A DNA stretch of 50,838 nt, taken from assembly GCA_937951345.1 (NCBI GenBank), contig CALFCF010000088.1, positions 1-50,838 on the forward strand. Reading direction: 5' to 3'. This document shows, piece after piece, positions 35,219 through 50,237 of this stretch (position 1 is the first letter of the stretch; every line of letters begins with the position of its first letter). The notes beneath the pieces are model-generated. The model was given only the letters and a program-made list of their open reading frames with translations. It did not search any database and was not told the DNA's origin. The position numbers and the translations under genes were made by a program. This DNA comes from an uncultured Granulosicoccaceae bacterium (GTDB taxonomy: Bacteria > Pseudomonadota > Gammaproteobacteria > Granulosicoccales > Granulosicoccaceae).

Positions 35219-35517
35219 GAAAGTTAAGGGTGTCTCACCAACATTTTTGTAGTACGTGAAAATTTCTATATTTTACAGTAAATTAAGTAAATTCAAACCA
35301 TTAGAGACACAAGCTAACCTGTGCTTTAAAGTATGTTGCAAGAAAGTGCCGAATTATTTTTCATAGCACTCTGTTAGAACACGTTACGAGAGAAAAATTA
35401 GCGGGCAGCGCGATGCAACCAGAGACGGTTTCGAAATCAGGTGTGGACGGACCGGGTTGTGGTTTTTTATCAGGATTTTGAACCCCGGATTGAGCGATAT
35501 TAAATCCGCATGAAAAG
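35219..35517. other. AT-rich spacer between mraZ promoter and rnpB
   Basis: About 300 bp without a gene. The first half is AT-rich (35225-35360) and may act as an UP element for the mraZ promoter. The 67-residue frame on the minus strand here runs into rnpB and is not real. I see no other structure. Confidence 0.55.
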
Positions 35518-35908
<391 letters not shown>

Positions 35909-45046: not shown

Positions 45047-46174
45047 GTGAATCGCACTCTCTATTTTACGTTCTGCTGTGTCATAGGAATCTTGTTCGCG
45101 GCGGCAATCCACTTCAAGGATTCGATTCGTTCCATTTTCGATGCCGAATCAAAGCATCCGACCGTCAGTGATGGCACAGGCGGCAATTTTTTGTCGCATA
45201 CCGACCAACTCGAGCAAACAACCTCATTTGCTGACGGAATAAAGATCGCTTCACCATCAGTCGTCAGCGTGTACACCGTCATTGACGGGACACTCGATCA
45301 TCTGACACCTCAGAACAGCCAGCAGGCCAACCAGGGCTCCGGTGTCATTATTGACAGTGACGGTCTGGTGGTCACCAGCAATCACTTGATCGACGGAGCA
45401 AAAAATATCTACATTGCGCTGGCTGATAACAGAATCTTTGAGGCCAGATTGATTGGTCGTGACCTGGAAACAGATCTGGCACTGGTCCAGACACAAACCA
45501 TTGAGCCACTACCTTCTCTGGAGCTGAAAAACGACATAATGCCCGAGGTGGGTGACGTTGTACTCGCTATCGGTAATCCCTACGGTGTCGGTCAGACGGT
45601 CACCATGGGAATCATCAGTGCTGTGCGCCGTAAACTGACCGGGGTCAGCCCGCTGCAAAACTTTATGCAGATTGACGCGGCCATCAACCCGGGCAACTCG
45701 GGGGGGGCGTTGATCAATTCGCGCGGTGAGTTATTGGGAATCAATACAGCGATATTTTCACGACTCGACGGTGCCCAGGGTATTGGTTTTGCGATACCGG
45801 CCAATGTTGTGGGATGGATTGTACCGCAGCTCCTGTCACAAGGAGAGGTGGTCAGGGGTTGGCTCGGCATTGCCGCACAGGATCTGATCAACTTCCCCGA
45901 ACTGTTCGGTGCGAATGCCAATGGCGCAGTAGTCGTCGGTCTGAGTGAGGAAGGTCCGGCAGGTAATGCCGGTATACAGCTGGGCGACGTTATCGTATCG
46001 GTTAACCAAAATCCGGTTCAACGGGCTGACAACTTGCTGACAGACGTGGCAGCGGGTCAACCGGGCAGCACGGTGCAACTAGGTGTGCAGCGAGGCTCGC
46101 TAGAACTTATCGTTGACGTGATGTTGGGGGAGCGGCCGGAAGTGGTTGGAGTTCAAAGCGAGCAGTTGCAGTAA
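45047..46174 (+). CDS. degS: DegS/AlgW-type periplasmic serine protease
   Basis: Membrane-anchored HtrA-family protease, 375 residues. In relatives it cleaves the anti-sigma factor RseA/MucA after sensing misfolded outer-membrane proteins. An N-terminal membrane anchor (TLYFTFCCVIGILFAAAI) is followed by the protease domain with His113 (VTSNHLID), Asp143 (ETDLALV) and Ser218 (NPGNSGGALI), and a single PDZ domain (RGWLGIAAQDL to the end), which separates DegS from two-PDZ DegP. The start is GTG at 45047. A run of eight G (45700-45707) spans the catalytic SGG codons and could slip. The region before His is SNH rather than the common NNH. Confidence 0.9.
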   Translation: MNRTLYFTFCCVIGILFAAAIHFKDSIRSIFDAESKHPTVSDGTGGNFLSHTDQLEQTTSFADGIKIASPSVVSVYTVIDGTLDHLTPQNSQQANQGSGVIIDSDGLVVTSNHLIDGAKNIYIALADNRIFEARLIGRDLETDLALVQTQTIEPLPSLELKNDIMPEVGDVVLAIGNPYGVGQTVTMGIISAVRRKLTGVSPLQNFMQIDAAINPGNSGGALINSRGELLGINTAIFSRLDGAQGIGFAIPANVVGWIVPQLLSQGEVVRGWLGIAAQDLINFPELFGANANGAVVVGLSEEGPAGNAGIQLGDVIVSVNQNPVQRADNLLTDVAAGQPGSTVQLGVQRGSLELIVDVMLGERPEVVGVQSEQLQ

Positions 46175-46386
46175 TATCAGTTAGACAGCCACCCGCACCC
46201 GAAATCGCGCCCACGGCGTTGCAACAGCGCATCCAACGCTGTTTTAACCAAATTTCTATTCACAACGGCAATCGCCGCTTGAGCGGTCGTTGCAAAAAAC
46301 GCCGTTCACTTATCCCAAATCGAACAACAAAGTGTGACACGTGCTCAGTCGACCAAACTAAATATGTCGACAACACAGAAGAAACG

Positions 46387-47082
46387 ATGTTTAAAAACCC
46401 AACTCAACGTTTTATCGAAAAACTGGGCCGGGTGTGGGTGCGCGCCAACATTCGCAATATCAAAACGCGTGAGTTCTGCATTATTGCCAGCAACTGCACC
46501 GGAACGCTGCCCTATCGCTTTCTGGATATCCCGTACAACACCCCCACAGTCAATTTACTTTTCCTCGCACCGTGTTACCTGAAGTTCATTCAGAATCTGG
46601 AGCATTACCTGAACGAACCGCTAGTGTTCTACCCGACATCCAAATACCCCGAAGGCGAATCCATACGGAACAACTTCCGACACCATTACCCCATTGGGAC
46701 ACTGGACGACATTGAAGTGCACTTTATGCATTACCAAACCGCCGCAGAAGCAAAAAACAAGTGGGATAGACGTAAGAAACGGGTTGATCCGGATAACCTG
46801 ATCTTTGCTTTCACTGACAAAGACTTATGTACACCGGCATTGCTTGAGGAATTCGATTCGCTACCTTATCCGAACAAATACGTGTTGACGGCCAAAAACT
46901 GGCCGCAACTGAAAAGTACAATACAAGTGCCGTATTTTGAGGATGAACAGGAGATTGGCGATTGCTACACCCACTACGGGCATTTGGCACACATCGATTT
47001 CGTCGAACTTATTTCCAGTGTTGCCAAAAGCAACCAAACGAAACAGGTACCTTACGCGATTCCGGAAAGTGTCGAGTCCTGA
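46387..47082 (+). CDS. DUF1919 family protein, probable polysaccharide-related
   Basis: 231 residues. The opening block (REFCIIASNCTGTLPYRFLDI, then PYNTPTVNLLFLAPCYLKFIQNLEHYL) matches the DUF1919 family, whose members often lie in exopolysaccharide or capsule gene clusters; their reaction is unproven. Here no other glycan genes are adjacent. The ATG at 46387 is chosen because AGAAG lies just upstream and the family region begins soon after; the frame is open for 56 codons more, but that part is Arg/Cys-rich and looks like noise. The 212 bp between the protease gene and this start holds nothing else I recognise. Confidence 0.75.
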   Translation: MFKNPTQRFIEKLGRVWVRANIRNIKTREFCIIASNCTGTLPYRFLDIPYNTPTVNLLFLAPCYLKFIQNLEHYLNEPLVFYPTSKYPEGESIRNNFRHHYPIGTLDDIEVHFMHYQTAAEAKNKWDRRKKRVDPDNLIFAFTDKDLCTPALLEEFDSLPYPNKYVLTAKNWPQLKSTIQVPYFEDEQEIGDCYTHYGHLAHIDFVELISSVAKSNQTKQVPYAIPESVES

Positions 47083-47233: not shown

Positions 47234-49570
47234 TCAGATACTGAATGCTGCTGCAAGGCTGCGCACCCATAATCCAGAGAGTATGCTGCCGGCAAATAAT
47301 AGCCAGTCCGCAGCACCCCCACCGCCGGTGGATCCGGAAGCGTCGCTGTCGAGTGATGAATTCAAACCGGATGCTTGGTTGCTGCTACTAATTTCCACGT
47401 TACTCGCCGCCAAAGTACTTATTGACTCACTCGTTCCCGGCAACGCGTCCAATGTTACGTTGACGCTGTCATTCATCGCGAATACATCATAGTAAGCGCC
47501 AGTTTCCAAAGACGCCAACAAAGGTGCATTAGCTTCAGCTTCCTGCCTGAAATGCAATTCAACAGATGTCGTTTCACCCGGTGACAGTGGTTGCAAAGCA
47601 CAAGCGATTTCAGCAGGTGCTTGCTCAGTACACCCAACCGGCAAAGCATCCAGATCGAGAGCTGCCGACTGTATGTGCAAATTTGTACCTTCGGCAGTGC
47701 CGTCAATAGCATTGTTGGTGACTGTTGCAAGCACCGACAATGGGCTGGAATAATGTAAATCGACCGAAACGTCTATAGCATTCAGCAGACAGGATTTGGC
47801 TATACCCTGCTGTACACTTCCCTGACTGCAGCTAGAGAAACTCTGTGTTGTTGAACCGGAAATTCGCGGCCACATCAGCAGATTCCGGTTACCGCTACAG
47901 GATGTGTCACTGTCATGCTGGGCACCAAGCGAATGCCCCAGCTCGTGTGTCACAAGAAGATCAGAATAAGTACTTGGAGTAGTCACCCCAACATCAAAAC
48001 CATCGCTTCTACAGACCGCGCCTATCCAGGCCAGTCCTATAGCCTCATCTGTATTGTCATTGCCGCTGAAAAGGTAAGTCAGACTAATATCGTCGCTACG
48101 ATCACGCACTTTCAAATGGAAATCACGAAATGTACGGAGCGTCTTCTCGAGCGTTACTGCTCCGAGATTCATCGGATCGGTCGCTCTGTCAGTAAATACC
48201 GTTGCATTGCCTACTTCGATTGCCAAACCGAAGTTTCTTCGGTAAATGCCATCAGCAACATTTAGGGCCGACATTGCCTGCAAAAGCCCATCGCCACCGT
48301 AGTAGTCGTTGTACTGACTATCAACATAAACACTGAGCCTGACCAGCCGGTTAACTCCACCTGCTATCGCCGCACCCAGTGCAGGTTCATCCTGAACTGT
48401 TGGTTGCTGCAACTCGCCTACCTGAAGCCTTTCGCGCAAATAAGCCTCTGGGTCCGGTGGCGGGTGCATCACGTAATCCTGCAAACGATGCTCGTCAAAG
48501 GTACCAGGGCGACCCTTGTCAGGTTTGTAGTACTGCAACGTACCGACCATTGAAGCGGGGGACAAATCAATTCTTTCACCACGAGTTTCAACAATACCCT
48601 TTATCTCTTCCCCGCGAATCATTACGCGCACCCAGGAGTCAGGATCACCTTCTACCTGGCCTGAAAAATATCTGACTTCACTTAGTGCAAGCGTCATTTC
48701 AGATTCGCTGTCAAAATGTGTGTTTTTTACCAAATTACTGGCACGCAACAACAACGGGAAACGCCTGCCATGAACGCTAACCTCAACGCGTAAATCATAT
48801 TCTGACGACTGTGTATTTTTATCGACGGTTGTTGAAATCAATCTAGCTGCATTCTTCTTGCGATCTTCAATCAGTCCAATACGATTGTTTGCGCGGTCGT
48901 ACCAGTAACGTGACAGATAGTTCGATTTCGGCCATCGCACACCGAATACTGACAATGAAAATTCAGTATGACGCTCACGTAATTCCTCGAACAATGTCAT
49001 CGCAGTGTCAGTATCACCCATTTGCTCAAGGCTAATCGCTTCACTGTAAAGTGCTGTGTCGATATAGGTTGAATCAGGGTATTGACTGCGCAACTGACCG
49101 AACAACTCCCCTGCCTTATCAAACTTATAATCATCCATCATCGCGATATACGCGCGCAGGTACAGTGCATCATCGCTTAAATAGCTATCCGCAAAGTCGA
49201 TTGATATCTTTTCTAAAGCAGCTATCGCCACATCGAACTGCCTGGCTTCCCGTGCGTCCATCGCTTCGAGATACAGGTCAAGTGCCTCATGCGCACCAAG
49301 CCTTGTTGCTTCCTGTAACACTGATATCCGATTCATCACCAGTGTTTTCAACGTTGAACCAGGATTATCTTTCAGAAATTGCTTATACAATACAACCGCA
49401 TGTTGGAAATCGTGACCGGATTCAGAGGCCTTTGCCTGCAGTAGTGTGTAGTCGTCAGGCTGCCAAAGTGTAGACGCCAATCCAAATCCCGATAGCTGCA
49501 GGCATACGATTACCAACACAACTCGTGTCGCTCGTCTTAGCAGTGCCGGTTTTCGACCATTAGTAATCAT
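47234..49570 (-). CDS. Exported TPR-ADAM-like (reprolysin-type) zinc metalloprotease
   Basis: About 778 residues from ATG 49570 (signal peptide RRATRVVLVIVCLQLSGFGLAS; a longer start at 49612 is possible). Order: TPR-like helical repeats (about 45-200), a region like the M12B propeptide of ADAM proteases (about 257-340; YFSGQVEGDPDSWVRVMIRG), the catalytic domain with the zinc signature HELGHSLGAQHD (His542, Glu543, His546, His552) and a Met turn (LLMWPRI), a DUF11/CARDB-like strand domain (VTNNAIDGTAEGTNLHI, GCT, LSPGETTSVELHF), and a C terminus of GSTGGGGAADWLLFAGSILSGLW plus Arg, resembling a GlyGly-type sorting tail. Zinc ligands are intact, so it should be active. Substrate unknown. A HAMP protein gene ends 58 bp upstream. 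Confidence 0.85.
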   Translation of the reverse strand: MITNGRKPALLRRATRVVLVIVCLQLSGFGLASTLWQPDDYTLLQAKASESGHDFQHAVVLYKQFLKDNPGSTLKTLVMNRISVLQEATRLGAHEALDLYLEAMDAREARQFDVAIAALEKISIDFADSYLSDDALYLRAYIAMMDDYKFDKAGELFGQLRSQYPDSTYIDTALYSEAISLEQMGDTDTAMTLFEELRERHTEFSLSVFGVRWPKSNYLSRYWYDRANNRIGLIEDRKKNAARLISTTVDKNTQSSEYDLRVEVSVHGRRFPLLLRASNLVKNTHFDSESEMTLALSEVRYFSGQVEGDPDSWVRVMIRGEEIKGIVETRGERIDLSPASMVGTLQYYKPDKGRPGTFDEHRLQDYVMHPPPDPEAYLRERLQVGELQQPTVQDEPALGAAIAGGVNRLVRLSVYVDSQYNDYYGGDGLLQAMSALNVADGIYRRNFGLAIEVGNATVFTDRATDPMNLGAVTLEKTLRTFRDFHLKVRDRSDDISLTYLFSGNDNTDEAIGLAWIGAVCRSDGFDVGVTTPSTYSDLLVTHELGHSLGAQHDSDTSCSGNRNLLMWPRISGSTTQSFSSCSQGSVQQGIAKSCLLNAIDVSVDLHYSSPLSVLATVTNNAIDGTAEGTNLHIQSAALDLDALPVGCTEQAPAEIACALQPLSPGETTSVELHFRQEAEANAPLLASLETGAYYDVFAMNDSVNVTLDALPGTSESISTLAASNVEISSSNQASGLNSSLDSDASGSTGGGGAADWLLFAGSILSGLWVRSLAAAFSI

Positions 49571-49628
49571 GTCGGAGATTTTTTCAATGCGAGCTGTGGC
49601 GGCCAAAAACATGTTTCATGTCAAATTG

Positions 49629-50237
49629 TTACGCGGCAGCGTTGTCCCGCTCGCCTGTATTGAAGTATTGCAAAACACCGTGGCAGTTTTGTAGCGCCTC
49701 ACGAATATCTGCGTGCTCGGATTGTGGACCGCCTTTCTCCACAATTGATACCTGTCTCTGCGCTTCACCAATCTTTTCCTGAATGGTTGCAACCGCTGAG
49801 TTAAGAGCATCGCTTATTTCTGCAAATTCACGCGAGTCGCCTGCACGTAGTTGCACATCCAGGTTACCTTCACTGATTTCGTTGAGTGCGCGCCGAATGG
49901 CCATTAAAGGAGAACCCAGTTTTCGACTGATGAACACACCGATAACCGTGGTTAGAACAGCATTGATAACCAGCATAGCAACCAGCCATCGACCAAGAAC
50001 AGTTGTGAGTCCCGGTACTTGCTCATTAAGACGAGCCAGCTCATCGGATGCAAACAACATCGGGCTGGTTCCGGCGACAATTTCACCAAGCAAGTGATGG
50101 TAGAAAATGCCAAGCATGACAGTACTGACAACAATAAAAATTCCAGCCAGCATTAATACACGTCTAATCAGACGCATCTGGAATGATTTATCCCTGAACA
50201 GGGCCAATATGAAAAATGAATCCGACGCACGCGCCAT
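49629..50237 (-). CDS. Two-helix membrane protein with a HAMP domain
   Basis: 202 residues. Membrane helices lie near residues 27-47 and 84-104 with a short periplasmic loop of about 35 residues between them, followed by a HAMP domain (about 104-157; ISRKLGSPLMAIRRALNEISEGNLDVQL, EFAEISDALNSAVATIQ) and a short coil ending in NTGERDNAAA. There is no methyl-accepting, kinase or cyclase domain, so it looks like a truncated receptor or a stand-alone signalling adaptor. It is the gene directly upstream of the exported metalloprotease on the same strand and is probably co-transcribed with it. Confidence 0.8.
   Translation of the reverse strand: MARASDSFFILALFRDKSFQMRLIRRVLMLAGIFIVVSTVMLGIFYHHLLGEIVAGTSPMLFASDELARLNEQVPGLTTVLGRWLVAMLVINAVLTTVIGVFISRKLGSPLMAIRRALNEISEGNLDVQLRAGDSREFAEISDALNSAVATIQEKIGEAQRQVSIVEKGGPQSEHADIREALQNCHGVLQYFNTGERDNAAA

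Follow-up and report, generated by a model that had tools for sequence, protein, structure and literature searches.

A bacterial M12B protease from Granulosicoccaceae with an ADAM-type prodomain, an N-terminal TPR module and a degenerate GlyGly-CTERM-like tail

Introduction

ADAM prodomains are usually treated as animal or venom features. A 50,838-nucleotide stretch of DNA (contig CALFCF010000088.1 of assembly GCA_937951345.1, positions 1 to 50,838; hereafter the window) from an uncultured Granulosicoccaceae bacterium, a marine relative of Granulosicoccus whose genome comprises 115 contigs totalling 4.49 Mb, contains an open reading frame in which a first-pass annotation, made from the sequence letters, had recognised an exported protease with an ADAM-like propeptide joined to an N-terminal TPR array. 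The locus raises the question of whether a bacterial protein carries a prodomain of this type and, if so, how such a zymogen might be exported, anchored and kept under control. The same annotation had proposed that the TPR repeats dock to a partner or to a secretion machine and that the protein acts as a regulated envelope or surface sheddase.

Gene context and domain architecture

The ORF occupies 49612..47234 on the minus strand and comprises 792 aa counted from the first ATG, the numbering used throughout. Translation likelier starts at the second ATG (49570, M15), located directly before a good Sec signal peptide, than at the first (49612), and the complete gene taken from this likelier start spans 47234..49570; all features of the protease and of its partner gene given below are likewise on the minus strand. 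The signal peptide (aa 15-47, 49472..49570) consists of KPALLRRATR and a hydrophobic core and is devoid of a lipobox Cys in the lipobox scan. It is followed by the TPR module, the ADAM-type prodomain, the M12B catalytic domain, an Ig/DUF11-like domain and a Gly-rich tail. The sequences YFSGQVEGDPDSWVRVMIRG and HELGHSLGAQHD were both found in the ORF, the latter at aa 556-567.

The closest named relative, from an uncultured Granulosicoccaceae bacterium, is 53% identical over aa 15-786. A protease match was present in 48/48 searched genomes of the GTDB family, most of the proteins being full-length or nearly so, and given these matches and the Pfam E-values reported below, the domain content of the ORF is far beyond chance. 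No relatives were found in the viral contigs searched, and a promoter/terminator scan returned a count below the shuffled expectation. Conservation, identities and Cys counts per region were based on 23 orthologues.

The domain order, which the first-pass annotation had not recognised from any known protein, proved to be indeed unusual. A paralogue in the same genome (L002), 31% identical, has the order prodomain-M12B-Ig-Gly-rich tail without TPR, which shows that a stand-alone version of the protease half is encoded in this genome as well. The window protein thus joins two modules that also occur separately.

Two plus-strand genes of the window are convergent on the protease gene, namely those for an N-terminally anchored trypsin-PDZ (DegS/HtrA-like) protease (45047-46174) and for a DUF1919 protein (46219-47082), and the same two neighbours occur at locus L011. 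It should be added that the window also carries, at 35517-35904 on the minus strand, an RNase P RNA of bacterial class A (Rfam RF00010, 322.9 bits).

Catalytic and Ig/DUF11-like domains

The M12B (reprolysin/adamalysin) catalytic domain covers aa 421-612 (47777..48352) and contains four conserved Cys. Its best reprolysin model was Pfam Reprolysin_5 (E=1.9e-19, aa 421-585), and with five Pfam reprolysin models above cut-off the protein is assigned to peptidase family M12B. The zinc-binding motif HELGHSLGAQHD (47912..47947) is followed by the Met-turn M580; the residues of HExxHxxGxxHD and the Met-turn are invariant in the 23 orthologues, and mean pairwise identity of the domain amounts to 0.54. 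The M12B catalytic domain proposed earlier is hence borne out by the Pfam matches and the invariant zinc-motif residues.

A search for a disintegrin domain after the catalytic domain gave no Pfam match at E<=1 in the window protein; an Ig/DUF11-like beta domain is located there instead (aa 613-724, 47441..47776), with a mean pairwise identity of 0.28 and two Cys invariant in the orthologues. Its suggested DUF11/CARDB-like nature was borderline in Pfam among the orthologues (DUF11 in 4/23, best E=0.003), but relatives gave clear DUF11 matches (E=1.8e-20 and 5.9e-26).

Relationship of the prodomain to ADAM17

The core of the ADAM-type prodomain extends over aa 270-358 (48539..48805), with invariant G318, V320, S326, W327, R329, G339 and G357 and a mean pairwise identity of 0.36. 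In a comparison of a 23-row prodomain profile with 177,635 PDB sequences, the top match was the separate ADAM17 propeptide chain (E=0.0018), followed by four ADAM17 zymogens; below E=0.02 only ADAM17 propeptide or zymogen entries were present, the next match being at E=0.6. The aligned stretch coincides with the region flagged by the first-pass annotation (profile GkVeGepdSWvRv... against ADAM17 GHVVGEPDSRVLAH...). A direct hhalign comparison with ADAM17, whose sequence was checked letter by letter against the PDB, gave E=1.4e-5 (single comparison), with the alignment running on into the start of the catalytic domain. We use the wording "ADAM-type" as the safe one because ADAM17 was the sole ADAM propeptide among the PDB matches.

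AlphaFold models, built from a two-row alignment of the window protein with one related locus, were poor (mean pLDDT 43.5 and 34.4); in the model of prodomain plus catalytic domain, the prodomain strands reached pLDDT of about 55-75. The top five of 350,542 chains in a Foldseek search with the low-confidence model (mean pLDDT 34.4) were ADAM17 prodomain entries; as Foldseek also weighs sequence and the query model is weak, this ranking is taken as supporting only. The propeptide resemblance noticed at first sight thus found its counterpart in the profile, in hhalign and, weakly, in the fold, and matches to a propeptide were obtained in both profile and structure comparisons.

One could argue that this likeness reflects convergence of small beta domains and not homology, given that the Pfam model of the M12B propeptide (PF01562) had no match in the window protein, in its own genome or in 398 genomes of the phylum. 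However, the ADAM17 fragment also misses this model, and PF01562 was consequently set aside as a blind test of propeptide identity; the relative L067 gave E=0.013 against it. Moreover, profile, hhalign and fold agree, the prodomain stands directly before the same catalytic domain as in ADAM17, and relatives keep a CG cysteine at the expected place, altogether making convergence highly improbable.

Compared with the zymogen of ADAM17, a human M12B sheddase, the window protein shares the prodomain core, the start of the catalytic domain, HExxHxxGxxHD and the Met-turn, as well as tethering through a C-terminal helix. It differs in being bacterial, in its N-terminal TPR module, in having neither a disintegrin/cysteine-rich region nor a cysteine switch, with no basic (furin-type) processing site seen, and in a tail for which replacement by a lipid anchor is predicted.

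The missing cysteine switch

Prodomain and catalytic domain are connected by a linker (aa 359-420, 48353..48538; mean pairwise identity 0.26) with invariant D379 and P384. The linker is devoid of Cys in the window protein, and the search for a cysteine switch gave 0 Cys in 23/23 orthologous prodomain-linker regions. Seven unfused, distantly related proteins, drawn from five other families of gammaproteobacteria, present a different picture, each of them having one linker Cys, in five cases within CG: NFCGV twice (f105), SCAAQ (f18), SCAHV (f161), SCGVA and SCGSG (f145) and TCGRG (f45); ADAM17 has PKVCGY at the corresponding place. This Cys is invariant in the four relatives aligned as A6/A7, two of which are just 22-28% identical to the first, and is absent from members of the window's family (f1) and of families f52 and f61. 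A profile made of four Cys-bearing prodomains alone retrieved ADAM17 colinearly at rank 2 with E=0.49, and this four-row profile by itself does not prove the ADAM17 link.

All seven Cys-bearing relatives end in Gly-rich, hydrophobic tails of the GlyGly-CTERM type. Together with the paralogue L002, these unfused prodomain-M12B-DUF11-GlyGly-CTERM proteins (L066-L069, L106, L108 and L109) share with the window protein the prodomain, the catalytic domain, the Ig/DUF11 domain (clear in L066-L069) and the Gly-rich tail; in contrast to it, they are without TPR and had no HAMP neighbour seen, and the seven distant ones have the linker Cys that the window protein is without.

The invariance of D379 made this residue attractive as a replacement for the Cys, and an aspartate may thus be the latency ligand, as in fragilysin and astacins; metzincins with aspartate switches are reported (PMC9629494), and none of the 23 prodomains has a Cys while all have D379. 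However, once aligned with the Cys-bearing relatives, D379 falls on the acidic position of a motif ahead of the switch (YK/FR-x-x-D/E; YKMSD, YRMSE, FRLQD and FRLDD, with YKSED of VYKSED in ADAM17), some ten residues before their Cys, in a linker whose alignment is uncertain. Since it aligns with the pre-switch acidic residue and not with the Cys, D379 is not clearly a substitute ligand, and we consider an aspartate switch distinctly improbable as the presumed latency mechanism of the window protease.

TPR module and its probable HAMP partner

The TPR module (aa 57-253, 48854..49444; TPR_6, E=8.3e-10; mean pairwise identity 0.43) has a CpoB/YbgF-BamD-like fold and ends in a conserved LSRxWFxRA motif, in concordance with the periplasmic-type N-terminal TPR array of the first-pass annotation. 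The fold resembles X. campestris YbgF, MamA and BamD (2xev_A TMt 0.81; TIGR02795 E=1.4e-10). An assignment to YbgF was rejected, the score of 41.8 bits being far under the curated TIGR02795 cut-off of 90.1; the C-terminal motif and the HAMP partner further set the module apart from CpoB/YbgF.

The gene upstream (49629..50237) codes for a 202-aa membrane protein with two hydrophobic segments, a short intervening loop and a HAMP domain without an output domain. A second TPR copy of the same genome stands on its own, in a predicted lipoprotein that also has an ASH-like domain (L003); the respective locus (L003:353-2091) holds a paralogous pair of HAMP protein and TPR lipoprotein with an ASH/SPD-2-like domain, conserved across the family. 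The TPR-only gene occurs in nearly all family genomes, with a HAMP homologue directly upstream at 20/20 testable loci. Beside the protease, the HAMP gene was found in 27 loci (3/3 in g1, the genus of the window, 21/21 testable in g5 and 3/3 in family f52) and was not adjacent in g2, g3, g4 and f61, which means that adjacency to the protease is not obligatory. The HAMP tree parts the copies next to proteases from those next to TPR-only genes by one change (support 74/45), the protease-linked clade of f1 having support of 100/96; in the TPR tree the protease group likewise separates by one change (98/93). These splits fit a single duplication of the HAMP-TPR pair, after which each HAMP protein would have been kept with its own TPR; in some genera, the HAMP gene next to the protease would have been lost afterwards.

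In four g4 genomes the TPR module is fused to a sulfatase (L041-L044; PF00884 E=1.3e-55 in L041, the one scanned), and these predicted lipoproteins may represent exported sulfatases that share this control module. By a strict lipobox pattern, which misses some evident cases, most TPR-only and TPR-sulfatase proteins have a lipobox and end without a C-terminal helix; no convincing lipobox was seen in the TPR-proteases, which have the Gly-rich tail instead.

Mainly on the grounds of the adjacency and the matching tree splits, we infer that the TPR module binds the HAMP protein. Of the two targets that the first-pass annotation had left side by side, a specific membrane partner, the HAMP protein, is hence likelier than a secretion machine. 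Alternatively, TPR and prodomain may form a single disposable pro-region, serving only as an intramolecular chaperone and secretion aid without a regulatory partner, with the HAMP gene merely hitch-hiking. Both parts indeed precede the catalytic domain and would be released as one, and the HAMP gene is not adjacent in g2, g3 and g4. This is nevertheless unlikely: the TPR module shows a higher mean pairwise identity than the prodomain (0.43 vs 0.36), it exists alone and in sulfatase fusions, and all testable TPR-only loci have the HAMP gene adjacent, the two trees splitting accordingly.

An exported metzincin with a membrane partner has a precedent: Acinetobacter CpaA (6o38) is secreted by the type II secretion system (T2SS) and has the membrane chaperone CpaB. 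Metzincin type, T2SS export and an inner-membrane partner are shared as an analogy; the sequence match of CpaA to the window protein is weak (E=0.0013), and none of the searches connected the HAMP protein with CpaB.

C-terminal tail and predicted export route

The C-terminus consists of a low-complexity linker and a GlyGly-CTERM-like tail (aa 725-792, 47237..47440; SGSTGGGGAADWLLFAGSILSGLWVR...). Under a strict rule applied to the last 70 residues, 32/38 orthologues combine a Gly/Ser motif with a hydrophobic stretch and basic residues, a rule that the window tail narrowly fails (hydropathy 1.4 vs 1.6, one basic residue); nor was this tail among the own-genome matches to TIGR03501 (GlyGly-CTERM) at E<=10. 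The original description of GlyGly-CTERM accepts below-cutoff tails through extended homology (PMC3237569). The Gly-rich C-terminal helix reported earlier does exist, and a degenerate GlyGly-CTERM is its best reading. An assignment to NF038115 (SVAGG family GlyGly-CTERM protein) was rejected (22.8 bits, cut-off 150).

The genome encodes a rhombosortase (152.6 bits, cut-off 84) adjoining gspG/gspH-like T2SS pseudopilin genes, named by inspection, and GspD is also present. Across the family, rhombosortase scored above the curated cut-off in 47/48 genomes; the negative one (G029) yet carries the protease, and an assembly gap is possible there.

Among the closest described counterparts are VesB and other GlyGly-CTERM/rhombosortase substrates of the T2SS in V. 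cholerae. VesB has the order protease-Ig-linker-GlyGly-CTERM, is cut by rhombosortase, acquires a modification of the glycerophosphoethanolamine type and leaves the cell through the T2SS (PMC6219818); its GlyGly-CTERM confers membrane association and its Ig fold acts as the T2SS signal (PMC13393428). In the window protein the Ig-like domain occupies the corresponding position, making this domain a candidate T2SS signal by analogy. The pro-protease-Ig-linker-GlyGly-CTERM order (PMC6219818, PMC13393428) and the presence of rhombosortase and T2SS in the genome are thus shared, whereas VesB is a serine protease without TPR, and the window tail is a weak GlyGly-CTERM match with predicted processing. 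On the basis of the GlyGly-CTERM-like tail and the rhombosortase and T2SS genes, the best inference is that the window protein is lipid-anchored at the cell surface.

A different assignment would be a periplasmic or inner-membrane envelope protease, in which the C-terminal helix is an ordinary anchor and the TPR part forms with the HAMP protein an inner-membrane complex controlling envelope proteolysis. The weak GlyGly-CTERM character of the window tail would suit it, as would a TPR fold like that of periplasmic CpoB/YbgF, BamD and YfgM, an inner-membrane HAMP partner and TPR-only paralogues that are predicted lipoproteins. We regard it as rather unlikely, since orthologue tails retain the Gly-rich motif, transmembrane segment and basic end, rhombosortase is present in 47/48 genomes, distant relatives have textbook GlyGly-CTERM tails (e.g. 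GGGGGSLGWPLLLGLFGLLFRWHYS) and the Ig domain is located where VesB carries its T2SS signal.

The genome of the window also encodes an astacin (L008:22-1581; PF01400 E=1e-47) with a GlyGly-CTERM above the model cut-off, a second metzincin family with such a tail. The unfused L112 of f52 (about 375 aa) has an N-terminal lipobox (LLGAC) and is without a Gly-rich tail; here the anchor seems to have shifted from the C- to the N-terminus. In the prodomain-M12B proteins L045-L047 (about 1000 aa), C-terminal repeated DTDPVGDGWGWDG-type motifs replace the GlyGly tail, with a CBM9 in L045.

Proposed mechanism

We consider it fairly probable that the window gene encodes a secreted M12B zymogen with an ADAM-type prodomain, built for lipid anchoring at the surface, in which the TPR module is a regulatory or targeting part, most likely engaging the HAMP protein. 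Starting from what was computed directly, i.e. the domain homologies, the missing cysteine switch, the rhombosortase and T2SS genes, the HAMP linkage and the co-divergence, a route of four steps can be proposed. The protease would first be exported by Sec. Its C-terminal helix, acting as a GlyGly-CTERM signal, would then be halted in the inner membrane, upon which rhombosortase would cut after the glycines and a phospholipid-type anchor would replace the helix. Thirdly, the T2SS would carry the folded zymogen to the surface, probably by recognising the Ig-like domain. Finally, the prodomain would hold latency up to the point at which cleavage or displacement removes the TPR-prodomain half; the catalytic and Ig domains would stay behind, anchored through the C-terminus. 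The TPR module would engage the co-encoded HAMP protein of the inner membrane on its periplasmic side, and this contact may hold or quality-check the zymogen ahead of release. Own or neighbouring surface proteins, or environmental protein, are plausible substrates, and the sheddase function proposed earlier stays a suggestion.

Significance

Neither a bacterial ADAM-type prodomain nor the HAMP-TPR pair was found described in the open-access literature, subscription papers being outside the scope of the search. The occurrence of such a prodomain on bacterial proteins of the rhombosortase type, with a CG cysteine in relatives at the position of the ADAM switch, bears on the origin of ADAM zymogen control, and these proteins offer soluble models for it. 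It is conceivable, although quite unlikely, that ADAM-type GlyGly-CTERM proteases with a cysteine switch are an old bacterial family, in which Granulosicoccaceae replaced the switch by TPR control reporting to an inner-membrane HAMP protein. Animal ADAM17 is reported to be under the control of the rhomboid pseudoproteases iRhom1/2 (PMC11248996, PMC13277793), and the window protein is probably handled by a rhomboid-family enzyme, the rhombosortase; that rhomboid-fold handling of ADAM-type proteases is more than coincidence is a weaker reading, which we do not count as evidence.

TPR and HAMP constitute a two-gene unit undescribed in the resources searched, whose TPR part is joined to a protease and, in some genomes, to a sulfatase. 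Exported enzymes of marine gammaproteobacteria may thus more generally be controlled or tethered by this pair. If true, TPR-HAMP control of the protease would represent a membrane-coupled zymogen and thus a new mode of regulating an ADAM-type protease.
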